A stretch of 64,000 nt of DNA from a bacterium BMS3Abin14 (GCA_002897695.1 BDTG01000028.1:1-64000); one strand, 5' to 3'; shown: positions 5,365 to 59,602, numbered from the stretch's first letter. A program made the numbers and translations. The notes: a model not told the origin generated them from the sequence alone.

Positions 5365-5828
5365 GAGGCTTGTTCGCAAAAGCACTGACTATCCTGATGC
5401 TTCCGATTCTGTTGCTGCCCATAGCTGGTTTCGCGGCCGGTCAGGAACTGAAGATCCAGTCTGATTCACTTCAGATCGACGAGACCAGAGGCGAGGTCAG
5501 GTTCGAAGGCTCCGTGATCGTAAGATTTCAGGCCGCCGAGCTGACATGCAACTCCCTGCTGCTGGTCACCGCAAATTCCTCCCGGATCAAGAGGGGGACC
5601 GCGCAGGGAGATGTTGTTTTGAAAAATATGGGTGACAGGGTCGAGGCCCAAAAGGCAGCGTTCGAACTGACAGGCGGGCAGGTCATCCTGACTGGCTCGC
5701 CGCGGCTTTTAAGGGGGGGTGACAGCATTAATGCCACCAGAATAACCTACGACGTGAACACCGGTGTGGCGGTGTTTGACGGTCCCGTGAATGCCGTGAT
5801 AATCTCGTCGCCGGGGAGCAGCCAGTGA
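5361..5828 (+). CDS. lptA: LPS export periplasmic protein LptA (OstA-like)
   Basis: Periplasmic beta-jellyroll protein that polymerises into the bridge carrying LPS to the outer membrane. The ATG at 5361 overlaps the lptC stop and follows a G-rich site at 5351-5357. The 155 residues begin with a clear signal peptide (ILMLPILLLPIAGFAAG), followed by the OstA-type phrase IQSDSLQIDETRGEVRFEG. An in-frame start at 5337 is possible but would place extra residues before the signal peptide. It overlaps lptB by four bases. Confidence 0.9.
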   Translation: MRGLFAKALTILMLPILLLPIAGFAAGQELKIQSDSLQIDETRGEVRFEGSVIVRFQAAELTCNSLLLVTANSSRIKRGTAQGDVVLKNMGDRVEAQKAAFELTGGQVILTGSPRLLRGGDSINATRITYDVNTGVAVFDGPVNAVIISSPGSSQ

Positions 5829-6544
5829 GGCTTGTCGCCGAATCCCTCATTAAGCGTTATGGGAAAAGGACGGCGGTGGACGGTGTGTCCATCACCCTGT
5901 CACCCGGCGAGGTCGTGGGGCTGCTCGGGCCCAATGGGGCCGGCAAGACAACAACGTTTTACATGATCGCGGGGATGGTTAGGCCCGATGGCGGACAGGT
6001 TCTCCTTAACGGCACGGATATGACCAGGTGGCCTGTGCATCGCCGGGCCCGGGCAGGTCTCGGGTATCTCCCCCAGGAACCATCCATATTCAGGGGGATG
6101 ACCGTGCAGGACAACCTTCTGTCCGTTATGGAAGCGGTGGGCATACCGGCAGGATCCAGGAACGCTCTGCTGGAGGAGCTCACCGAGGCAATGGGCGTCG
6201 CCCATCTTGGCAAAAGCCTCGGTGGAAAACTTTCGGGCGGTGAGAGACGGAGGGTGGAGATCGCCAGGGCCCTCGTGTCGGACCCAGCATATCTTCTGCT
6301 GGACGAGCCTTTCGCCGGGATCGATCCTATCACCGTCCTGGAGTTGCAGAAACTCATCCGGATGTTGAGAGACCGGAATCTCGGAATCCTGATTACGGAC
6401 CACAACGTAAGGGAATGTCTTGGAATTACCGACAGGGCCTATATTCTGGCGGCCGGCAAGATCCTGGAAGAGGGATCCCCGGAGATGATCACCTCCAGTG
6501 AAAAGGCCCGGAAAGTTTACTTTGGAGAGGGTTTCAGCCTGTGA
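5825..6544 (+). CDS. lptB: LPS export ABC transporter ATPase LptB
   Basis: Cytoplasmic ATPase that powers LPS extraction through LptF and LptG, which are encoded at 16-18.3 kb in this window. The 239 residues show Walker A GPNGAGKTT near residue 36, Q-loop YLPQEPS, signature LSGGERRRVEIARAL, Walker B LLLDEPFAGIDP and the switch His in ITDHNV. The start is GTG 5825, overlapping the lptA stop. Its own stop overlaps the GTG of rpoN, so LPS export and sigma-54 are co-translated. Confidence 0.96.
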   Translation: MRLVAESLIKRYGKRTAVDGVSITLSPGEVVGLLGPNGAGKTTTFYMIAGMVRPDGGQVLLNGTDMTRWPVHRRARAGLGYLPQEPSIFRGMTVQDNLLSVMEAVGIPAGSRNALLEELTEAMGVAHLGKSLGGKLSGGERRRVEIARALVSDPAYLLLDEPFAGIDPITVLELQKLIRMLRDRNLGILITDHNVRECLGITDRAYILAAGKILEEGSPEMITSSEKARKVYFGEGFSL

Positions 6545-48047: not shown

Positions 48048-48797
48048 TTACCTGAACCTTATGTTGTGCTTTTGAACGGCCTTAACCAGATATTCTATCT
48101 CGCCGGGATGGAGGATTCCCTTCTTGACAAAGAATTCCCCTATGGGCCGCTGGAGCCAACGCTGAAAGCCAAGGACCGCGGAACGCTGGTAGGGAGTCAT
48201 GTACCCCAGGCGAAGCGCTGAGCCGCCTATCCTTTCCCCGAACACTCTTTCCGCTGAGATGATGTGAAGCTCCTCTGAATTAAGAAACTTCCACGTGGCG
48301 GCAATATGGCCGAAAGAGGGACGCTGACGTCTCTGCCAGGTAATGGCCTTGATAAGGGTTCTCCAGGATATGATCCCGGAGTAGTAAAGGTACTGGCCCA
48401 GCAGAAGCCTGTTCTCGGGAACCAGACCCTGCCAGAAATGGTCATGGGTTTTCCCGCCCGTTTCTGATGCCCTGTTTTCGGCCGGGTCTTCGCGGGGGGT
48501 GTTGCGGGGCTGAGGATTCGTCCGGTGAACAGTCGTGGATAGGTCCTCCGATGACAGGAAAGCCAGAAGGCTGGAGTAGGCCTGAGTTACTGCTATGAAA
48601 TGTTCGGCCATCTCATTCTCATCCTTGCCCTGAATTCTGGCCCTGTCCGGATGAAGCTCCAGAGCCTTTCTCCTGAAGGTGACCTTCAGGCCTGAAGGCC
48701 CCAGCGTTCGCAGAAACTCATCGGTCACCTCGACATCGGCGCCGAAAAGCACCCTGAATGCCGAAGTGATCTCCCGGGTATTTAACGCGGTATTCAA
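48048..48797 (-). CDS. J-domain protein with GspE-N-terminal-like C-terminus
   Basis: TTG 48797 is preceded, on the minus strand, by GGGAGG at a good distance and gives 249 residues; the open frame continues far upstream through repeat DNA and is rejected. Residues about 5-95 resemble a DnaJ domain with the HPD motif in ALELHPDRA. The C-terminal half (LLGQYLYYSGIISWRTLIKA and FFVKKGILHPGEIEYLV) resembles GspE-N-terminal/MshEN-type repeats also seen in the protein at 36753. Probable Hsp70 partner; target unknown. Confidence 0.72.
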   Translation of the reverse strand: MNTALNTREITSAFRVLFGADVEVTDEFLRTLGPSGLKVTFRRKALELHPDRARIQGKDENEMAEHFIAVTQAYSSLLAFLSSEDLSTTVHRTNPQPRNTPREDPAENRASETGGKTHDHFWQGLVPENRLLLGQYLYYSGIISWRTLIKAITWQRRQRPSFGHIAATWKFLNSEELHIISAERVFGERIGGSALRLGYMTPYQRSAVLGFQRWLQRPIGEFFVKKGILHPGEIEYLVKAVQKHNIRFR

Positions 48798-48927
48798 GGA
48801 CCAGAACCTCCCTAAGTCTCCAGCTACAAACAGAAGAATCGCTTGCAGGCACAAAAGCGACAACCGCAACTTTACAGTGACGCTATTCTGGGTAATAAAC
48901 GTGCATGTGTCAAGTGTCTTGAACGTG

Positions 48928-48954
48928 GTCCAATGTCCAATGTCCAACGGGGAA
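48928..48954. repeat. GTCCAAY heptamer array, left flank of the island
   Basis: GTCCAAT, GTCCAAT, GTCCAAC (48928-48948) followed by GGGGAA. The inverted counterpart lies at 56598-56617 on the other side of the island. Same heptamer family as the arrays at 31521 and 61065. Confidence 0.8.
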
Positions 48955-49132
48955 AAGCCGGATGTGGTGACACGGAGACACGGAGAAAAACGAAGAGGGG
49001 GGATAAGAGCAGGCGGTGGGCTCGATTTAACAGGGATGAAGGGGATGAAAACAGGCGATGGGCAGTAAGAGCAAGTTTGTAGTTTGAGGCTTGAGGTTAA
49101 AATCTGGCACTGAAACCTTGGTGAAACAGACA

Positions 49133-49180
49133 TGGGAGCAAGGGAGTAAGGGCGTATCGAAGCATCGAAGAATCGAAGAA
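49133..49180. repeat. in-register 8-base tandem array of two word types
   Basis: Six contiguous octamers: TGGGAGCA, AGGGAGTA, AGGGCGTA, then TCGAAGCA, TCGAAGAA, TCGAAGAA. The first three match the array at 18413-18460. Confidence 0.8.
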
Positions 49181-49374
49181 TCTCAAACTCGCCTATATTA
49201 TGTGACAATTGTCTTGTCCGGTTCGACGTGGTATGCCTCGATCCCAAAAACGACTTTTAAAAAGGGAGACTTTTGGTGTCGGGCAAGCCCATTAATGTCA
49301 TTATCGGGGACGGGGAAAATCCCTCGTCTTTAGGTGAAGGGAAGGATGTGATAACATAATTATGTCAGATATCG

Positions 49375-49689
49375 ATTGAACGTGAGATAGAGATCCTGTC
49401 GGGTAAAGTTGGCAGCGACCATGTTCACGTTTTTATATCCTGTCGTCCGAGTCATAATATCAGTGTATCAGTCAGGTAGTGCAATGGTTGAAGGGAATCA
49501 GTTTCCGGGTGCTTCTTTAAGGAGTTTCCCCACTTGCGCAAGCAATTTTGGGGTCGTCATTTTTGGGCTCGCGGCTATCTTGCTGTTTCCTCCGGTACCA
49601 TCACAGATGAGATGATCCAGGAGTATATTGAAGAGCAAGAAGGGGAGCCGATTCATGATGACAGTCAATTTCCAGTTGACAACCCTTAA
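49375..49689 (+). pseudogene. tnpA: IS200/IS605-type transposase TnpA remnant
   Basis: Three reading frames must be joined to recover a Y1/HUH transposase C-terminal part. 49375-49461 gives REIEILSGKVGSDHVHVFIS with the HUH pair HVH. About 49462-49515 gives SQVVQWLKGISFRVLL. About 49518-49689 gives FKEFPHLRKQFWGRHFWARG, then AVSSGTITDEMIQEYIEEQ and a TAA stop. The N-terminal third and two frames are lost, so the gene is dead. It lies directly before the HEPN/helicase genes. Confidence 0.82.
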
Positions 49690-49694
49690 ACCCA

Positions 49695-49709
49695 TCGCCT
49701 TTTAGGCGA
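49695..49709. repeat. small palindrome after the transposase remnant
   Basis: TCGCC / GGCGA with the loop TTTTA lies six bases after the tnpA stop. IS200/IS605 elements carry subterminal hairpins at their ends, so this may mark the right end. Its right arm runs into the GAGGAG that could serve as the ribosome site for GTG 49720. Confidence 0.4.
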
Positions 49710-49719
49710 GGAGTATCCA

Positions 49720-50215
49720 GTGGAGTCGAGGCTGCGGACAAACATGCCTCCAGTGAAAGCGAGCTTTCTTGCTATGACTCAAAACCATGCGAAAGATAAC
49801 AATCAAATGCAGGCCTCGTTTGCGACTTTACTGAGTGGGGCGGCTGAGGCCCTTGCAAATTATCTTGACAGGCTATTGCCTTCACTTCTTGATAACTGGT
49901 GGAAAAATGCTGTGGTGGACAAGCTGTCTTTTCAGCAACACCGCGGATCAAACAGAAAGGAATAGTCCACCTCTCATCATTGGATCTTGCTGCCTTGCTT
50001 CGGGTGTTGGATCAGAACTGGTACCAGATTTCAATGAAGATGAATCTATCCCCGGAAGTTCGCCATTTTGTTAAAGAAATGCAGACAGTTCGCAATCGGT
50101 GGGCGCACGCCGGCAGTGAAGGATTTCCGGTCGACGATGTATACCGTGACTTGGACACCCTGCAACGTTTTGCCACAGTCATTGAGGCGGACGAAGCTCT
50201 GCTTCAAGAAGTACG
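49720..50215 (+). pseudogene. broken Swt1-type HEPN domain module
   Basis: GTG 49720 with GAGGAG upstream opens a frame (SGAAEALANYLDRLLPSLL, then WWKNAVVDKLSFQQHR) that shifts near 49944 into HLSSLDLAALLRVLDQNWYQ and VKEMQTVRNRWAHAGSEGFP. Adding one C after 49944 joins them as QQHRRIKQKGI. RNRWAH is the Rx4H motif of HEPN RNases. A second frame change near 50210 separates it from the helicase frame. In relatives as I recall them, this module is fused to the N-terminus of such helicases. Sequencing error could explain the first shift. Confidence 0.72.
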
Positions 50216-53179
50216 GTGGAGGGTGAGACGCAGACATACTACGCATCGCAACTCAAAGCTGAAGACCGGCAGGAAGCCGAGTCCCGATTCTTGCCGTGCG
50301 AGGAATTTCATTCCTACCTCACCGCGCTGCAAATTCGATATCCGGGACTCTCCACGCTCTATTCCTTGAATGCCGCACGAGCCGATTTTATCCCCTATCA
50401 GTTCCGGCCCGTCTTGCGGTTTATCAGATCAGACCGTCCTCGATTGCTGGTCGCCGATGGCGTGGGCGTCGGCAAGACAATCGAAGCGGGTCTGATTCTC
50501 CGAGAACTGCAGGCACGACGAGATATACGCTCGATCCTCATCATATGCCCTCGCCCTCTTGTTACCGAGCGTAAGTGGCAGATTGAGATGAAGCGGTTTG
50601 AAGAGCGTTTTATTCATCTTGACGGTGGGACGCTCAGGTATTGCATAAACGAAATGGATTTGGAAGGAACCTGGCCAGAGCAGCACCAGCGAGTCATCAT
50701 CCCATATTCCTTATTCGACGAAGTCCTTCTCTATGGCTCGGGCTCTGACGGCAAACGAAAGTGCAAAAAGGGGTTGTTGGATTTGGACCCACCCCCTCGC
50801 TTCGATCTGGTTATCGTGGATGAGGCGCACCACATCCGGAATCAGGATACGTTCAGCCACAAAGCCGTGCGGTTTTTCTGTGACCATGCGGAAGCCGTGG
50901 TCTTTCTGACAGCGACGCCGATTCAACTTGGCAGCCATGACCTCTTTGTTTTGCTGAACACCCTCCGCCCCGACCTTATTATCGACCAAGAGAGCTTTGA
51001 GCACATGTCAGAGCCGAATCCGTTTATAAACCAAGCGGTCGCATTGGCGCGTGCCCAGGAACCGGACTGGACGACCCAGGCCAATGAAGCTCTCGATCAG
51101 GCTGCTGGGACACCCTGGGGACAATCGATTCTTAAACATAATCCTGAATTCAACCGCATACATACTCTAATTTCGAAAGGCAAAATCGGATTGGAGGAGC
51201 GTGTACAGCTGATTACCGACCTCGAGGCGTTACATACCTTCTCCGGGATAATCAATCGAACGCGACGCCGCGATATCGGGGAGTTCACGATCCGAAATCC
51301 GGAAACCGTGGTTGTTGAATTTACCCCCCCCCAAAAAGAGCTTCATGACGAACTGATTCAAGTCCAGGCGGAGATATTCAGCAGACTTCATGGGGATGTT
51401 AACGTCAAGTTCATGATGACAACAATTAGACGTCAGGCTGCGAGCTGCCTTTTCGGCCTCGCCCCTTTCCTTGACGAAATTCTCAACCGGCATCTTGATG
51501 AATTATCATGGGAGGAGGCCGACAACACCGAACCAGTTCCACAAAGCGACATCATCGATAGCATCGAATCACGAATTAAAACCATCCTTGAGAAGGCGCG
51601 TGCTCTCGATCCGAATGACCCCAAGCTTGACGCTCTCCGTAAAGTCATAAGAGACAAGCAGGGTCTGCCAAACAACAAAGTGATGCTTTTTAGCAGTTTT
51701 CGGCACACGCTTCACTATCTCTATGAACATCTGAACGCAGATAGTTTTCGGGTTGGAATGATTCATGGCGGCACACCTGACGAGGACCGTGTCGATCTTC
51801 GTAACCGCTTTGAGATGCAGCGAGATCAGGATAACGGTCTCGACGTTCTTCTGTTTTCCGAGATCGGTTGTGAAGGCTTGGACTACCAGTTCTGTGATTG
51901 CATTGTGAACTATGACCTGCCCTGGAATCCGATGCGGATTGAGCAGAGAATAGGACGAATTGACCGCTGGGGGCAGAAAAGTGAAAAGGTGGCTATCTTC
52001 AATATGATTACGCCAGGGACTGTGGACGCGGACATCTATGAACGCTGTCTGGTTCGCATAGGAGTGTTCAATAATGCCCTGGGCGGTAGTGAAGAGATAC
52101 TTGGTGAAATCAGTCGAGAAATTCGTAATATTGCGGATAACTTCTCTCTGAGTGAAGCTGAGCGCGGAGAGCAGTTCCAACAATTAGCGGACAATAAGAT
52201 CAGGCTAATACAAGAACAGGATGACCTCGAGCAGAAACAACTTGAGCTATTCGGCATCCGTCTTCCTCAAGACCAAATGAAGCGGGAAATCGAACAGGCG
52301 TCGAGTTTCTGGCTGTCTCCCTCTTCAATACGAAGGCTCATAACGATTTACCTTCAGCGGGTTTGCGGAAAGGAACAGGAGTTCATACTCGGCGAGAAAG
52401 CACTGAAAACGCTTCGGCTTTCGCAAGAATCAAGGAGTAGTGTACTACGGGATTTTCAAAGACTACCCCGCCAGAACACGTCCGCGTATCGAGAATGGGA
52501 AAACTGGTTGAAGGGTGGCAACCCTCATCTTCTAATGACCTTCGAGTCCGAGTGCGCTTCGCACCACCCTGAGGCCGTTTTCATTATGCCCCTCCATCCC
52601 TTGGTAAAACAGGCGGCCATGGCATTCGATGCCAGAAAGCGCGTATTTACAGCCCTGAAGGTTAACAGCAATGATGTCCCGAAAGGCAGATACGAATTCG
52701 CCATCTTCCAATGGCAGTTCCATGGCGTTAGGGAGGATTTGGTCTTGCGGCCTGTTGCTTCCTCGGACGTGGTGACCGAACACCTTCCAGGTCTTGTTGA
52801 GAAAGCGGAAGGAGATCCCACTGGAAGGATCGACGTCGCAGATCCCGCCATTTGGGATGGTCTGGATGCGCAGCATCACAGGCTGTGGTCTGAAGCACGC
52901 AAAAACCATCAACGAAAGACCCAGGAACTGGCTGAATACCGGAGGGAGAGTTTGACAACGAGCCACAGAGCCCGGATCTCACTTCTTGAAGAACAACTGG
53001 GTCAAGCGAGTAATGACAAAATCAGGCGGATGCGCCAAGCTCAAATTGCAGCGGCTGAAGCGGATTACGCGCGTCGCATTCAAGAATTGGATATTGCTAT
53101 GGAACGGGCCGATATTACCGCCCAACCGGTGGCGTATGGGGTAATCCACATCGATGGAGGGTTGTCGGATGCCGAGTGA
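50216..53179 (+). CDS. SNF2/RapA-type superfamily 2 helicase of a candidate defence module
   Basis: 987 residues from GTG 50216 (weak ribosome site; the natural start may have been the HEPN module upstream). It has Walker A DGVGVGKT (81-88), DEAH at 202-205, motif III FLTATPIQ, and in the C-terminal lobe FSEIGCEGLDYQF and QRIGRIDRWGQ. A long helical C-terminal part with heptad-like charge pattern follows (about 640-987). No nuclease or methylase domain is visible. The architecture is like DrmD-type and RapA-type SNF2 proteins. Its stop overlaps the start of the GHKL gene, so the two are an operon. Transfer is likely, given the transposase remnant. Confidence 0.88.
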   Translation: MEGETQTYYASQLKAEDRQEAESRFLPCEEFHSYLTALQIRYPGLSTLYSLNAARADFIPYQFRPVLRFIRSDRPRLLVADGVGVGKTIEAGLILRELQARRDIRSILIICPRPLVTERKWQIEMKRFEERFIHLDGGTLRYCINEMDLEGTWPEQHQRVIIPYSLFDEVLLYGSGSDGKRKCKKGLLDLDPPPRFDLVIVDEAHHIRNQDTFSHKAVRFFCDHAEAVVFLTATPIQLGSHDLFVLLNTLRPDLIIDQESFEHMSEPNPFINQAVALARAQEPDWTTQANEALDQAAGTPWGQSILKHNPEFNRIHTLISKGKIGLEERVQLITDLEALHTFSGIINRTRRRDIGEFTIRNPETVVVEFTPPQKELHDELIQVQAEIFSRLHGDVNVKFMMTTIRRQAASCLFGLAPFLDEILNRHLDELSWEEADNTEPVPQSDIIDSIESRIKTILEKARALDPNDPKLDALRKVIRDKQGLPNNKVMLFSSFRHTLHYLYEHLNADSFRVGMIHGGTPDEDRVDLRNRFEMQRDQDNGLDVLLFSEIGCEGLDYQFCDCIVNYDLPWNPMRIEQRIGRIDRWGQKSEKVAIFNMITPGTVDADIYERCLVRIGVFNNALGGSEEILGEISREIRNIADNFSLSEAERGEQFQQLADNKIRLIQEQDDLEQKQLELFGIRLPQDQMKREIEQASSFWLSPSSIRRLITIYLQRVCGKEQEFILGEKALKTLRLSQESRSSVLRDFQRLPRQNTSAYREWENWLKGGNPHLLMTFESECASHHPEAVFIMPLHPLVKQAAMAFDARKRVFTALKVNSNDVPKGRYEFAIFQWQFHGVREDLVLRPVASSDVVTEHLPGLVEKAEGDPTGRIDVADPAIWDGLDAQHHRLWSEARKNHQRKTQELAEYRRESLTTSHRARISLLEEQLGQASNDKIRRMRQAQIAAAEADYARRIQELDIAMERADITAQPVAYGVIHIDGGLSDAE

Positions 53180-56100
53180 CTACGAACAGATTTGCAAGGA
53201 TAATATTCGCCGTCGTGGTGAGGAATTTGACGACATAGGTCAGCTCATATCAGAACAACTCCACAGTGATCGCACACATTTTATCTACGAGCTTCTTCAA
53301 AACGCTGAAGATGCACTAGGGCGTCGCAAGCGAAACAATCCAGAAAGTGAATTGCCCACCAACGTTAAGTTTCTTCTCTATAAAGATAGAATGGAATTTA
53401 GACACTTCGGGGAAAACTTTAACATAGAAGATGTAAAAGGCATTTCAAACGTTCTTAAAGGCACCAAGTCCGAAGATAAGACTCAAATTGGAAAATTTGG
53501 CATAGGATTTAAGTCAGTATATGCATTTACTTCAACACCAGAAATTCACTCTGGAGCCGAACATTTTATTATCGAACGATATATTCGACCTCGAAGCGCT
53601 GATAAATTTCCACAAATAGCCAGCGGAGAGACAACCTTTGTTTTCCCCTTCAATCATAAAGACCTTTCAAAAGAACAAGCATTTCAGCTCATAGAAGAGA
53701 AGCTGAAAAAGATTGGTTCCCGCATCTTACTTTTCCTGGGTAACATAACGGAAATTAAATGGAAAATTGAAGACCAAGATGAAGGACTATATCTTAAAGA
53801 ATCAAAACAGCAAGGCCAGTTCGCCCAAAAGGTTACTGTGATAGGACAGCACGGAAATGAAAATGAAGAAGAGGAGTGGCTTGTTTTCAGACGACAGATT
53901 GAGGCTGGGAATTCATCTTTTGAGAGTTTTGTTGAAGTAGCATTCAGATTAAAAAATGATGTAAAATTAGAAAGAGAAATTATACAGAAAATTGAATCTT
54001 CTCCATTGATTGTTTATTTCCCCACAAAACTTGAGACGCGTTTTGGTTTTTTTGTTCATGGTCCTTATGACACTACTGCTTCGCGTTCGGACATTGAAAA
54101 TAACGAATGGAATAGAAGACTAATCATCGAAACGGCAGATCTTTTAACCGAAATAGTCTTGCCTTGGTTAAAGGAAAATAGGTTATTAACTCCCAGTTTT
54201 CTTGAGGCTCTACCAATCAGACTCGATGTATTTCCACAAGATAGCTTATTTCGGCCAATATATGAAAAGGTGCGGGGTGCACTAAGAAATCAAGATTTTC
54301 TTCCGACAACAGATGGTAATTACGTTGCCGGGAAGCGTGCAGTGCTCGCTCGCGCTGAAGACCTTGTGAACTTAATGAGCTCGGAACAACTTTCCTTCCT
54401 ATTAAGCAAATCGATAAAATTAGAATGGCTTACAACAGATATAACGGAAAATAAAAAAGATATCCATCGATATTTAGTTGGTTGGAAGCCAGGCTACTAC
54501 GATACTGGAGAGGAGACAGAATCACTTATTGTTGCTGAGATTCGCCCACAAGATTTAATTGAAAAACTTACGTCTGATTTCCTAGAGGCGCAAAGTATCA
54601 CCTGGCTACTTAAATTTTATGCTTTTTGTGAAAAACGCCCCACACTTATTGACAAGTTAAAAAATAAACCTGTTGTTCGTCTCGAAGAAGGTCCTTATGT
54701 TATTCCATTCAAGCAAGACGGTTCTCCTAATGCTTACTTGCCACCTGAAAACGATACAGAGTTTCCAGTGGTGTCCAGAAAAATATCTAAAGATGAAAAG
54801 GCGCTTGAATTCCTCAAGAAATTAGGGCTCACAAAGCCTGATGCAGTTGCTGAAGTGATAGAACATGTTCTTCCCAAATACAGGCAATCTAATCCTGATA
54901 TCTCAGATGATGAACATCGCCAGGACATAAAAAAAATCCTAAAGGCTTACGAAACTGACTCTCAAAAAAAGAAGAGAAGACTGATAGAACAGTTACAGGC
55001 AACGGAGTTTATTTTTACGGAAACACCCGGCATAGAAACGACCAGTTTCAGAAGGCCAATTGACGCGTATTTCTGGAGTAATGAGTTGGAAGCATACTTT
55101 TCTGGCAGCAACACAGTTGGTTTCGTTAGGCCAGAATTTTATAATCAGTCCGTCTTGGCGGTTTTCGAAGATCTGGGAGTCACTGATAAGATACGAATAC
55201 GATGTAAGTCAAAAAATGGTTCAGTGGATTACATGCAGCTTGAATATAAGAATTGGCATAGGCGTGGGCTAAGAGGTTTTGATCCAGATATTCAAATAGA
55301 CGGAATCCAATATGCCATAAAGAATCCATCAGGTGAAAAGAGCAAAATCATTTGGAACGAAGTAGCGGTAAAGTACAGTCATTGCATTAAGGGCAAAATT
55401 ATAAGATCAAGCCGGCAAGATTTTTCACTGAATGCAAGCGTCTACGAAGAAGAGGAATTAACGTCAAATTTTGGCCGATTATTGATGGACACCCCTTGGC
55501 TGCCAGATAAGCAAGACAACTTTCATAAACCCGCTGAACTCAAGCTCGACGATCTACCGGAATCATTTGTTCGTGATGAAAAACCGGTCAACCAGTTAGG
55601 TATGAAGAAAGATGTTGTCGCTAAACTTGCGGAAGAAGCAGGTATTTCATTAGATAATATCGAAAAGGCCAAGAAAATTGCTGAAGCCTCTCCAGAAGTC
55701 AAAGAACAAATTGACTTATTGCTCTCTAATTCCAACGAAAAACAGCCGGAATTCCCCCGAAAAGCCTCATCGAATGTTGACCGCCGCAGAAAAAAAACAA
55801 CTGAAAAATACCATAAGGCACCCAAAAAGAAATATGAAAAGAAACCTTACAGTAAAAAGGTTACTGAAAATACTATAGATCCCAAAATTTGGCTGAGAGA
55901 AACATATACGAACAAAGAAAGGCAGATGATTTGCCAAATATGCCAGAATGAAATGCCCTTCAAAAAGAAGGATAGCCAGTATTATTTTGAAGCCGTCGAA
56001 TTATTGAATGATTTTGATCGCGAGATGGAAGAGTTTTATATTGCCCTGTGCCCCCTATGTGCGGCTATGTATAACGAATTTGTGAAACATGACAAAGGTG

Positions 56101-56240
56101 CCATGGAGCCTTTGAAAAACGCGTTGATAAATTCGGACGACGCTGAAGTCCCGCTGCAGCTTGGAGAGCTGGACACAAGTGTCCGGTTTGTCGAGACCCA
56201 TTATCACGATATACAGACTATTCTCGAGGAGCGAAAATAA
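53169..56240 (+). CDS. GHKL ATPase (sacsin/NOV-like) with C-terminal four-cysteine domain
   Basis: ATG 53169 with GGAGGG at 53156-53161, overlapping the helicase stop; 1023 residues. An N-terminal Bergerat-fold ATPase shows ELLQNAEDA (41-49, with the Mg-binding Asn45) and GKFGIGFKSVY (108-118); the second box is atypical. A long middle region is of unknown function. A Lys/Arg-rich linker (about 860-905) is followed by cysteines at 922, 925, 961 and 964 (CQICQNE, CPLCAAMYNEF). Base composition is plainly more A+T-rich than that of the surrounding genes, a sign of transfer. Function unknown; a defence role is inferred from the helicase partner. Confidence 0.85.
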   Translation: MPSDYEQICKDNIRRRGEEFDDIGQLISEQLHSDRTHFIYELLQNAEDALGRRKRNNPESELPTNVKFLLYKDRMEFRHFGENFNIEDVKGISNVLKGTKSEDKTQIGKFGIGFKSVYAFTSTPEIHSGAEHFIIERYIRPRSADKFPQIASGETTFVFPFNHKDLSKEQAFQLIEEKLKKIGSRILLFLGNITEIKWKIEDQDEGLYLKESKQQGQFAQKVTVIGQHGNENEEEEWLVFRRQIEAGNSSFESFVEVAFRLKNDVKLEREIIQKIESSPLIVYFPTKLETRFGFFVHGPYDTTASRSDIENNEWNRRLIIETADLLTEIVLPWLKENRLLTPSFLEALPIRLDVFPQDSLFRPIYEKVRGALRNQDFLPTTDGNYVAGKRAVLARAEDLVNLMSSEQLSFLLSKSIKLEWLTTDITENKKDIHRYLVGWKPGYYDTGEETESLIVAEIRPQDLIEKLTSDFLEAQSITWLLKFYAFCEKRPTLIDKLKNKPVVRLEEGPYVIPFKQDGSPNAYLPPENDTEFPVVSRKISKDEKALEFLKKLGLTKPDAVAEVIEHVLPKYRQSNPDISDDEHRQDIKKILKAYETDSQKKKRRLIEQLQATEFIFTETPGIETTSFRRPIDAYFWSNELEAYFSGSNTVGFVRPEFYNQSVLAVFEDLGVTDKIRIRCKSKNGSVDYMQLEYKNWHRRGLRGFDPDIQIDGIQYAIKNPSGEKSKIIWNEVAVKYSHCIKGKIIRSSRQDFSLNASVYEEEELTSNFGRLLMDTPWLPDKQDNFHKPAELKLDDLPESFVRDEKPVNQLGMKKDVVAKLAEEAGISLDNIEKAKKIAEASPEVKEQIDLLLSNSNEKQPEFPRKASSNVDRRRKKTTEKYHKAPKKKYEKKPYSKKVTENTIDPKIWLRETYTNKERQMICQICQNEMPFKKKDSQYYFEAVELLNDFDREMEEFYIALCPLCAAMYNEFVKHDKGAMEPLKNALINSDDAEVPLQLGELDTSVRFVETHYHDIQTILEERK

Positions 56241-56597
56241 GTTCGCTCGGTGGCCATTGCGAGCAATTCTCTACATGCGTAGGCCTAATTTTACTGCCAG
56301 ATATCAAGCGAAGACTGAGGCAATTGTTCGGGCCGGAACGGCTTCAAGACAGGGTGAGTCATGATGTTTGAAGCCGCGTCGGGCCTATGCAGCTCCCCCC
56401 AAATGAAAGATCAAGAGGCTCGGCGGAATCTGGAACCCGAGACGAAAGCTTCGAGGAAGCCCTTGTGTCAGAGACAGTTAAGGCAATGGGACGTGTATGG
56501 GAGCATTGAGGTAACGAAGTGTTATCTATGTCCTGAACTAAAAGTGTTGCCCCTGTCCTGATTGCTCCCCCGCATCCCTCAAACCTCAAACTTGCCC

Positions 56598-56643
56598 TTC
56601 CCCGTTGGACGTTGGACATTCTTTCTCACGTTGAACGTTGGAC
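56598..56643. repeat. GTTGRAC heptamer pairs, right flank of the island
   Basis: GTTGGAC twice (56604-56617) and GTTGAAC, GTTGGAC (56630-56643). These are the reverse complement of the GTCCAAY array at 48928; TTCCCCGTTGGAC here is the exact inverse of GTCCAACGGGGAA there. Confidence 0.8.
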
Positions 56644-56699
56644 TTAATGGTAGTTCCCCGACTTTCGGAACAATGTGGTGTTTTTGCCACACATTATCC

Positions 56700-56727
56700 T
56701 TGTTGAGATACTCCTAAATGATATAAT
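56700..56727 (+). promoter_or_regulatory. extended -10 promoter for the DUF4390-ntrYX-like operon
   Basis: A perfect extended -10, TG-A-TATAAT (56719-56727), with TTGTTG (56700-56705) 16 bases upstream of the TATAAT. A transcript would begin near 56734, about 55 bases before GTG 56790. Confidence 0.6.
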
Positions 56728-56789
56728 CTCCAGCAATCTGCCAATAAAAATGTGTATCCGTGCGTACGCAAGGGAGACTCCCGATAACT

Positions 56790-57380
56790 GTGAACTGCGA
56801 AATCCGGCGTGTAACAGGCTGCCTTCTCATCTTCCTGGCGCTCCAGACCCTCCTTTCACCGGGGCTTGCCGTTGCCGCCGCGGGGAGGAAGCCGGTCATC
56901 TCTGAGGTAACACTCAGGGCTGGGCAGCAGGATGTCCTTCTTTCGGCGAAACTCGATGCCCCTATCAGTGAGAAGGTAAGGGAAGCCGTTATGGGGGGGG
57001 TCCCCCTGACATTTCGATACAAAATCAGGCTGACAAAAAAAGGGGCTCCTCTGGGAGAAAGGATTCTCCGCACGGAGGATGTCGTCCACACAATTCAGTA
57101 CAACCCTGTGAAGAAGATTTTCGATTTCAAGACAGAGGGGTACAGGGATGATCTTCAGAAAACAACGAAGGATGCGAACGAGGCTTTCAGGTGGATGTCC
57201 AGGGTAGAGGAATGGCATCTCTACCCTCTGAAAAAGCTCAGGAGCCATGTGCGGTATCGGGTCAGGGTTATGGCGACCTTAAATTCGGTGGAACTACCCT
57301 CTGTTCTGGGATACCTCTTTTTCTTCACGAGCATCTTCAACAGTGACACCCCCTGGAAACAGGTGGAATTTTCCTATTAG
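56790..57380 (+). CDS. DUF4390-type exported protein
   Basis: From GTG 56790 the product has 196 residues; GTG 56760 would add ten. AGGGAG at 56771-56776 favours 56790, though the spacing is long. A signal peptide (LLIFLALQTLLSPGLAVAAA) leads a predicted beta-rich periplasmic domain with RKPVISEVTLRAGQQDVLLS and RMSRVEEWHLYPLKKL-type segments characteristic of DUF4390, which is regularly found before NtrY-like kinases. Role unknown, perhaps in sensing or envelope status. Confidence 0.78.
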   Translation: MNCEIRRVTGCLLIFLALQTLLSPGLAVAAAGRKPVISEVTLRAGQQDVLLSAKLDAPISEKVREAVMGGVPLTFRYKIRLTKKGAPLGERILRTEDVVHTIQYNPVKKIFDFKTEGYRDDLQKTTKDANEAFRWMSRVEEWHLYPLKKLRSHVRYRVRVMATLNSVELPSVLGYLFFFTSIFNSDTPWKQVEFSY

Positions 57381-57388
57381 GAGTGATT

Positions 57389-59602
57389 TTGCCGGCTAAA
57401 CTCCCAAAGATTCTGGATGTAAGATCACGGCTGACCGCCATCGTCCTTCTTGTCCTTCTCATAGGGCTGGCTCTTTTTTTTGGTAGCCGGTACAGGGATT
57501 TTCAGTCCGCCGTCCCCAGGGGCGGGAATCTCTTTGTTTTTTTTCTGATCAATATCAATGTTCTTCTGGTCACGGTACTCATCTTTCTTCTGGCCCGGAA
57601 CGTCATCAAACTGTTCTACGAAGGCCGAAGAAAGGTTTTTGGCTATCACCTCAGGGCTAAACTGGTACTGATCCTTGCCGGGTTTTCCCTTATTCCCACT
57701 ATCCTGCTTCTCTTCGTGGCCGAAGGGTTTATTTCCGACAGTGTGCGGTACTGGTTCAATATCAATGTGGAGCAGGCAGTTGAGGACAGCGTTTCCATCT
57801 CCCGGGACTATTATTCGACCATGACCGGTCGAGCCAGGGTGCTGGCTCAAAGGGTTTCGGACCGCCTTGGGGAGATTGATGGAGAGAAAGACATTGGCGA
57901 TCGGCTTGAAGCTGTTCGAAAGGATTATTCGGTTTCCGACATTGAACTATTCGACCATTATGGACAACGTATTGCCGATGCCTGGGACGGATTGGGACCG
58001 CAGGAGGTGACTGACCCCCAAAGCAGTCTGGTCCAGAACGCAAGTGTCGGCAGGGTTGTTGACGGTATCGGCAAGGCCATGAAAGGAGAGTTTATCAAGG
58101 GGGCGGCTCCTCTTATGACACCCCGGGGTCAGGGCGCTGTGATCGTCTCTATATTCGTTCCGGAAAATGTCAGGGCAAAGGCCGAGAACATTGCCAAGAC
58201 CTACCGTGGCTACACTGAGATGAAGCTGCTGAAAAAACCCATATATACCAACTACAGGGCCTATCTTATTTTCCTGGCCATGCTCATCCTGTTTTCCGCA
58301 TCCTGGCTGGGTTTTTACATTGCACGCAGCATTACCGTTCCCATCCAGTCCCTCGCCGAGGGGGCGGAAAAGGTCGCCGGCGGGGATCTTTCGGTCCGTG
58401 TTGATGTTACGGCAACGGACGAGATCGGTATCCTCGTTCAGGCCTTCAACCGGATGACGGGTGAGCTGGAAGAGGGCAGGCTGCGGCTCGAGAAGGCCCA
58501 TGGTGACCTGGAGAAAGCATACTTCGAAAATGAACAGCGACGCACCTACATAGAGACGGTTTTAAGGGATGTCGGCACGGGCGTAGTTTCCATGGATATG
58601 GAGGGGAGGATCAACACCTTCAACCGTGCAGCCGAGGTCATGTTTGTGGTCAACCCGGAGGATGTGCTCGGGAGATGTATTGACGACCTCCTGGGGGCGG
58701 AGCATGTTCGTGTCATGCGCGGAATGCTGAAGGCGGCTCTCGATTCGGACCTCCGAAACGTCAGGCGTGAAATCCCGATCGTAGTCGCCGGAACACCCCT
58801 TATTCTCCGCCTGAATATCAGTGTCCTGGATGATCCGGCAGGAAAGCCCATGGGGTTTGTCCTCGTTCTGGAGGATATGACGCAACTCGTCAACGCCCAG
58901 AAAAAAGCGGCATGGTCTGAAGTGGCAACCCGGATTGCCCACGAAATAAAAAATCCGCTGACCCCCATAAAACTTTCCGCGGAAAGGATCAGGAAGAGGC
59001 TTATGGGGCATCTGGATGAGGAGGATGCCCGAATTATGAGTGAAGGAACCGCGTCAATAATCAGGGAGGTTGACTGGATGCGGAGTTTGGTTAACGAATT
59101 TTCCCAATTCGCCCGGCTTCCTGTGCTTACTTCCGTTCCGGGGGACATTAACGGGACAATCAGTGAAGTGACTGCACTATATAGCGGCGGAAAATCAATG
59201 AAAATGAAAATTGGGATGCAGCTTGAACCTGATCTGCCTGTTATAAGTTTTGACCACGAGCAGATACGCAGGGTGCTGATCAATCTCATTGACAACGCCA
59301 TCAAGGCCGTTGAGGAAAAAGGAGAAGGGGAGATATTGGTTTCAACCAACCTCCTGAGGACCCATGGCATACTTGAAATATCCGTGGCTGATACGGGGGT
59401 CGGGGTTCGGGAGAATCTTCGGAACAGGATTTTCGAGCCCTATTTCAGCACAAGAGAGGATGGGTCCGGATTAGGCCTGGCGATTACCCAGAGGATCGTA
59501 GAGGAGCATGGCGGAACGATCACCCATATGGAAAACCACCCAAGCGGAAGCGTGTTTTCAGTCAGGATACCGGTTGACATTGATCCCGGAAGGCGAGCCT
59601 GA
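57389..59602 (+). CDS. NtrY-like membrane sensor histidine kinase
   Basis: TTG 57389 follows AGGAG at 57379-57383 (spacing 5), better than the GTG at 57383 that overlaps the site. About 737 residues: two N-terminal membrane spans, another near 90-115, an extracytoplasmic region to about 285, a span (LIFLAMLILFSASWLGFYIA), HAMP, a PAS domain near 390-490, HisKA with phospho-His in RIAHEIKNPLTPIKLSAER, and HATPase (DTGVGVREN, FSTREDGSGLGLAI). Cognate regulator follows at 59692. Confidence 0.94.
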   Translation: MPAKLPKILDVRSRLTAIVLLVLLIGLALFFGSRYRDFQSAVPRGGNLFVFFLININVLLVTVLIFLLARNVIKLFYEGRRKVFGYHLRAKLVLILAGFSLIPTILLLFVAEGFISDSVRYWFNINVEQAVEDSVSISRDYYSTMTGRARVLAQRVSDRLGEIDGEKDIGDRLEAVRKDYSVSDIELFDHYGQRIADAWDGLGPQEVTDPQSSLVQNASVGRVVDGIGKAMKGEFIKGAAPLMTPRGQGAVIVSIFVPENVRAKAENIAKTYRGYTEMKLLKKPIYTNYRAYLIFLAMLILFSASWLGFYIARSITVPIQSLAEGAEKVAGGDLSVRVDVTATDEIGILVQAFNRMTGELEEGRLRLEKAHGDLEKAYFENEQRRTYIETVLRDVGTGVVSMDMEGRINTFNRAAEVMFVVNPEDVLGRCIDDLLGAEHVRVMRGMLKAALDSDLRNVRREIPIVVAGTPLILRLNISVLDDPAGKPMGFVLVLEDMTQLVNAQKKAAWSEVATRIAHEIKNPLTPIKLSAERIRKRLMGHLDEEDARIMSEGTASIIREVDWMRSLVNEFSQFARLPVLTSVPGDINGTISEVTALYSGGKSMKMKIGMQLEPDLPVISFDHEQIRRVLINLIDNAIKAVEEKGEGEILVSTNLLRTHGILEISVADTGVGVRENLRNRIFEPYFSTREDGSGLGLAITQRIVEEHGGTITHMENHPSGSVFSVRIPVDIDPGRRA

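Follow-up and report, generated by a model that had tools for sequence, protein, structure and literature searches.

What is the function of a Swi2/Snf2-type helicase gene joined to a GHKL ATPase gene in the bacterium BMS3Abin14, and is this copy still in working order? The pair lies in a window of 64,000 nucleotides (BDTG01000028.1:1-64000; contig 28 of a 49-contig, 2.28-Mb draft genome), where the initial annotation had seen a candidate defence module. Our reading, to which we give a probability of roughly 0.6, is that a mobile anti-invader system of two genes, probably of the abortive-infection type, is present here in degraded form. A role in defence as such, probably against phages, is likely.

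The helicase–GHKL operon and its relatives

The two genes form an operon, as first proposed: both lie on the plus strand, and the start of the GHKL reading frame overlaps the helicase stop (Table 1). Pfam profiles score above cut-off for all three domain types that had been named, with SNF2-rel_dom (60 bits) and Helicase_C (72 bits) in the helicase, SACS (PF25794, 50.9 bits against a cut-off of 32.8) in the GHKL protein, and HEPN_Swt1 (PF18731, 57.3 bits against a gathering cut-off of 27.5) in a fragment upstream (frame 49899-50369), where the match spans profile positions 45-114 of 115. The sacsin ATP-binding domain of NCBIfam (NF047352) also matches the GHKL protein with 76.3 bits against a cut-off of 50. 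The reported A+T richness of the second gene is confirmed, its G+C content being 39.7% throughout compared with 51.4% in the helicase gene and ~55% in the surroundings. The transposase at the left edge is dead, as had been supposed: the truncated Y1_Tnp relic (PF01797, positions 28-121 of 121, E = 9.5e-22, at 49348-49638) contains three in-frame stops and is the sole Y1_Tnp of the genome.

Table 1. Positions of features in the window and, in the last five rows, defence genes beside relatives of the pair
Feature	Position	Strand	Description and evidence
Inserted block, 7.7 kb	48919-56627		compared with same-genus genome G001, which has ~510 bp at that place
IS200/IS605-type TnpA relic	49348-49689	+	N-terminus missing, frameshifted; reading frames
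Broken HEPN_Swt1 domain, 5' part of helicase gene	49755-50215	+	in two frames; keeps RNRWAH
Junction of 205-bp deletion	50215/50216	+	DNA alignment to L016, L017, L018 and L020
Helicase ORF	50216-53179	+	987 codons, GTG start; RapA-type Swi2/Snf2 helicase/translocase, N-terminus truncated
GHKL ORF	53169-56240 (ATG at 53154 also possible)	+	1023/1028 aa; sacsin/Hsp90-type GHKL ATPase
GHKL motifs HFIYELLQNAED and IGKFGIGFKSV	53277-53519	+	nearly invariant in 51 rows
Hypervariable, exchanged GHKL middle	53709-55890	+	mostly 20-30% identity to relatives with helicases 78-82% identical
McrA-like HNH/treble-clef C-terminal domain (CQxC...CPxC)	55890-56120	+	profile match to 6ghc, E = 4.9e-6; alignment
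Type III methylase and restriction genes	flanks of L037, L041, L068		individually checked
PglZ and PDC-S68	flanks of L082		individually checked
PDC-S68	flank of L043		individually checked
Type I restriction subunit	flank of L048		individually checked
Mokosh-like protein	flank of L041		individually checked

Predicted structures agree with these assignments for the Snf2 core of the helicase and the Hsp90-like head of the GHKL protein, which the fold matches cover. The model of the nearest helicase relative (L016, 82% identical to the window helicase; pLDDT 80.8) has RapA as its best Foldseek match and aligns to RapA 8t0l with Z 23.6 over 793 residues; the model of the window GHKL protein (pLDDT 84.1) has an Hsp90/GyrB-like head and transducer (NTD-middle) with Z ~15-17; the head aligns to sacsin SR1 (5v44) with Z 15.1 and 25% identity over 172 residues.

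The pair is conserved well beyond this genome. At least 570 helicase relatives were confirmed among at least 590 pattern matches listed from a one-genome-per-species collection, which defines a two-gene unit with many related stretches. The best 80 of these relatives (L016-L095) span ~15 phyla by submitter labels, and 75 of them are testable for the pair, the other five ending too soon past the helicase. A GHKL gene adjoins the helicase in 74 of the 75, directly downstream in 73, most commonly with a 4-bp overlap, and directly upstream in the single case of L054. Homologues that do not co-occur would have spoken against a module, as the initial annotation pointed out, and they did not appear. 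On plasmids, four places cover the GHKL query to 80% or more, and all of them likewise adjoin the helicase. The system is patchy and too rare for co-occurrence to be judged from sampled genomes, as 1 of 341 sampled Clostridia has it, namely the centre genome itself.

The reverse relation does not hold, since the GHKL relatives on viral contigs L139, L140 and L142 have other neighbours; the GHKL family is therefore broader than the helicase–GHKL pair, and the module seems to pair with other motors too. UvrD-like helicases adjoin these three relatives, and methylase- and restriction-like genes also stand beside those of L139 and L140. Long GHKL partners of ~1,570-1,590 aa with two tandem ATPase-like domains are found in L072 (12953-17671) and L088 (13075-17856).

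The HEPN domain had been described as a separate module preceding the two genes, a view that the relatives overturn. Intact relatives carry HEPN_Swt1 (65.1 bits in L016), a beta domain that we call Tudor-like only by analogy with RapA and BrxHII (L016 model, strands 188-241) and the RapA-type Swi2/Snf2 part in one protein of ~1,190 aa. HEPN is thus the N-terminal domain of the helicase, and an upstream gene of its own is ruled out by this fusion. It is present on the helicase ORF in 64 of the best 80 of the at least 570 relatives, and RNxxxH is kept in 61 of these 64 domains (59 found by script, and L028 and L030 seen in a separate scan). The helicase tree calls for a minimum of six changes in its presence, and the pair can therefore do without HEPN; a mechanism centred on the RNase may be secondary. 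Forms that lack HEPN but retain an intact Tudor-like domain occur in L025, L054-L056, L067, L089 and a Rhizobiaceae/Sphingomonadaceae clade. In both of these families, the HEPN-free version is preceded by a conserved protein of ~180 aa (L010 11178-11732, L011 11192-11722, L015 9189-9719), which has no Pfam match, resembles a sigma factor by eye and may act as a regulator or stand in for HEPN. In Rhizobium, the gene preceding the helicases was considered as a HEPN candidate and rejected, as it encodes a different protein of ~180 aa, again with no Pfam match.

Transfer and genomic surroundings

The pair is a horizontally transferred operon. In the single other same-genus genome compared (G001), blastn aligns window 48081-48918 and 56628-59595 to positions 5418-6256 and 6767-9735 of L120 with identities of 82% and 84%, respectively, and the flanking genes are collinear. 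The locus is therefore an insertion absent from a same-genus genome, and a housekeeping pair at conserved loci, named at the outset as a finding that would count against defence, did not appear. Near both ends of the block lies a 23-bp inverted repeat with one mismatch (48932-48954 and 56598-56620), which may stem from the insertion or be a repeat that is common between genes. The GHKL gene is absent from eleven other genomes of the phylum, apart from a C-terminal fragment in G009 of the same family. That fragment stands alone (L121 2389-3246, 54% identical) and is followed by a large uncharacterised ORF.

Phyla are mixed in the helicase tree, where the window falls among loci labelled Myxococcota, Thermodesulfobacteriota, Nitrospirota and Bacillota, such labels of metagenome bins being fallible. 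Plasmids of Rhizobium and Ensifer and one of Methanomethylovorans carry relatives, as do the IMG/VR contigs L145, L149 and L153. The helicase query had no match among the viral contigs, yet the GHKL scan still brought out three helicase-bearing loci. A full-length DNA match was not found in E. coli.

On the proposed check for defence islands, relatives often lie among defence genes, and the locus in the window does not. Around 14 loci, 88 ORFs within ~5 kb were compared with 96 ORFs elsewhere on the same contigs (E 1e-20; one control stretch per locus), and 108 PADLOC families were matched in the flanks versus 33 in the controls; these are counts of families, not of proteins, in a small sample, and the control matches are mostly GajB models on one UvrD-type protein. 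Type III or Type I restriction genes, PglZ, PDC-S68 or Mokosh-like proteins flank at least 6 of the 14 loci (Table 1). The PADLOC candidate defence protein PDC-S68 lies directly downstream of the pair in two distant hosts (L043 16164-20033, L082 16632-20339). In the window, PADLOC found no defence genes among seven neighbours, which are housekeeping genes; its RtcR matches on the neighbour NtrX were rejected as generic sigma-54 activator matches.

Cassette exchange, proposed mechanism and state of the window copy

The GHKL gene behaves as an exchangeable cassette. Identity of the protein to its relatives is ~40-70% in the head and tail and mostly 20-30% in the middle. Divergence of the helicase and the GHKL protein correlates overall (r = 0.74), but several pairs fall off the trend, with helicase versus GHKL identities of 96% versus 36% (L078/L080), 89% versus 28% (L052/L059), 85% versus 24% (L046/L059) and 82% versus 31% (window/L016). 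The DNA of L078 and L080 is 94% identical up to the GHKL start and 93% identical from 9 bp past its stop; inside the gene, a single weak patch of 360 bp is alignable, and the rest is unrelated. Similarity of the window DNA to L016 and L017 stops at 53146-53148 and resumes only at 55890 and 56043, within the C-terminal domain. The low G+C content of the window GHKL gene is consistent with exchange; ten relatives likewise have a GHKL gene 1-9 points below the helicase in G+C, and therefore base composition alone is no proof of it. In the HNH-like tail, the cysteines are mostly kept in the aligned rows. The tail is probably a zinc-stabilised binding domain, judging from the alignment, because the catalytic histidines are replaced.

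A constant effector beside a variable partner is what one would expect if specificity lay with the partner, and the Hsp90-like GHKL protein, which recurs in defence loci, may be the part deciding what is recognised. We suggest that the exchanged middle would recognise a feature of the invader, that ATP-driven closure of a GHKL dimer would signal to the Snf2 motor, that the motor would release or concentrate the HEPN RNase, and that RNA cleavage would then stop growth. This particular order of sensor, motor and RNase is tentative, and the rapid evolution of the GHKL protein could instead reflect escape from inhibitors. L078 and L080, a natural pair differing almost solely in the GHKL gene, make the recognition idea directly testable.

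In a restriction-like mode of action, the DNA of the invader would be the target of the Snf2 motor and a GHKL clamp, with the HNH-like tail for DNA binding and HEPN as no more than an optional backup. Such a mode would accommodate the McrA-like tail, the persistence of forms that have an intact Tudor-like domain and no HEPN, and the RapA/BrxHII-like architecture common to BREX-related helicases (PMC12839542). However, no active DNase was found, the HNH histidines being replaced in the aligned rows and Pfam giving no REase domain, and the unit lacks a methylase of its own; we consider this targeting of DNA unlikely.

Whichever way intact members act, the window copy is probably decayed. DNA alignment to L016, L017, L018 and L020 reveals two deletions, one of 1 bp near 49943 and one of 205 bp that takes out the HEPN-Tudor linker together with the opening part of the Tudor-like domain, and the GTG at 50216 falls in the middle of that domain by comparison with relatives. 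The HEPN_Swt1 reading frame is not intact, and the domain now lies in other frames than the helicase because of the two deletions. Its Rx4-6H catalytic motif is present as RNRWAH. With the HEPN effector split by frameshifts and part of the Tudor-like domain lost, the copy probably has no RNase output. The truncation is not a natural HEPN-free form, since those forms keep the Tudor-like domain. The remaining ORF is open aside from the lesions, so either the gene decayed recently or what is left of it is in use. That the copy is intact and both lesions are assembly errors is improbable: the genome is a draft in 49 contigs, the remaining 987 codons are uninterrupted, the residues of HEPN have been preserved well, and the 1-bp lesion could indeed be a sequencing or assembly error, but the lesions are two and separate, a 205-bp deletion would be unusual as an assembly error, and the neighbouring transposase decayed independently. 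For experiments on the proposed anti-invader system, intact relatives are the suitable ones, as the window copy is probably decayed.

Comparison with known systems

A housekeeping pair linked to RNA polymerase or the nucleoid, with a RapA-like helicase and the GHKL protein as a chaperone, would fit the structural match of RapA to most of the helicase (8t0l) and the Hsp90-like GHKL head, yet it is highly improbable in view of the patchy distribution, the insertion with its empty site, the plasmid and viral contigs, the mixed-phyla tree, the defence neighbours of relatives, the exchange of the GHKL gene and a RapA equivalog score of 168.2 bits against a cut-off of 576.

The initial annotation could match the combination to no named system, and comparison with Tiamat, DISARM and BREX leads to the same result. 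Tiamat, which we take to be TmtA of PADLOC, is defined as a single-gene system. In PADLOC, the GHKL protein matches TmtA best (E = 3e-67; 225.7 bits to PDLC03972, which gives no cut-off); the matched models have 1,302-1,782 positions, whereas the GHKL protein is shorter, ends in a dead HNH and, in 74 of the 75 testable loci, is encoded beside a member of the HEPN-helicase family. For the helicase, the best PADLOC relative is the SNF2-like DrmD of DISARM (E = 2e-115), with 303.4 bits against an NCBIfam equivalog cut-off of 610, and 145.1 against 950 for DrmD_b. PADLOC found no DrmA, DrmB, DrmC or methylase among the seven neighbours in the window, and PF09369 (MZB) is absent from the genome. 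The GHKL head resembles the sacsin SR1/Hsp90 family, while the middle and tail regions are unlike it; the tail resembles the HNH domain of EcoKMcrA (6ghc) with the catalytic HH replaced, typically by FEAVE-type residues.

BREX-related systems contain Tudor-Swi2/Snf2 helicases and, in Type 1, an optional N-terminal HEPN on the DUF499 ATPase (PMC12839542). BrxHII, BREX-related helicases and RapA share with the helicase here the layout of Tudor, Swi2/Snf2 and alpha+beta tail (PMC12839542), but here HEPN is on the helicase, the partner is a GHKL protein, and the unit is without PglZ, BrxC/DUF499 and methylase. Neither PglZ nor DUF499/BrxC is among the window neighbours, and PglZ stands beside one relative only (L082).

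The fusion of HEPN and SNF2 is already on record. A Swt1-like HEPN fused to a SWI2/SNF2 ATPase (WQE_15321), the same fusion type as the helicase of intact relatives, is listed as active in Table 1 of Anantharaman 2013 (PMC3710099); this listing is possibly the first mention of the HEPN-helicase effector gene, and the entry itself names neither a GHKL partner nor an exchange of cassettes nor a defined system. A literature search, with many subscription papers and preprints outside its coverage, found no description of the helicase–GHKL pair. The pair may represent an undescribed class of defence, in which exchangeable Hsp90-like GHKL recognition cassettes would direct a constant HEPN-Snf2 effector-motor by analogy with the way HsdS retargets restriction enzymes.
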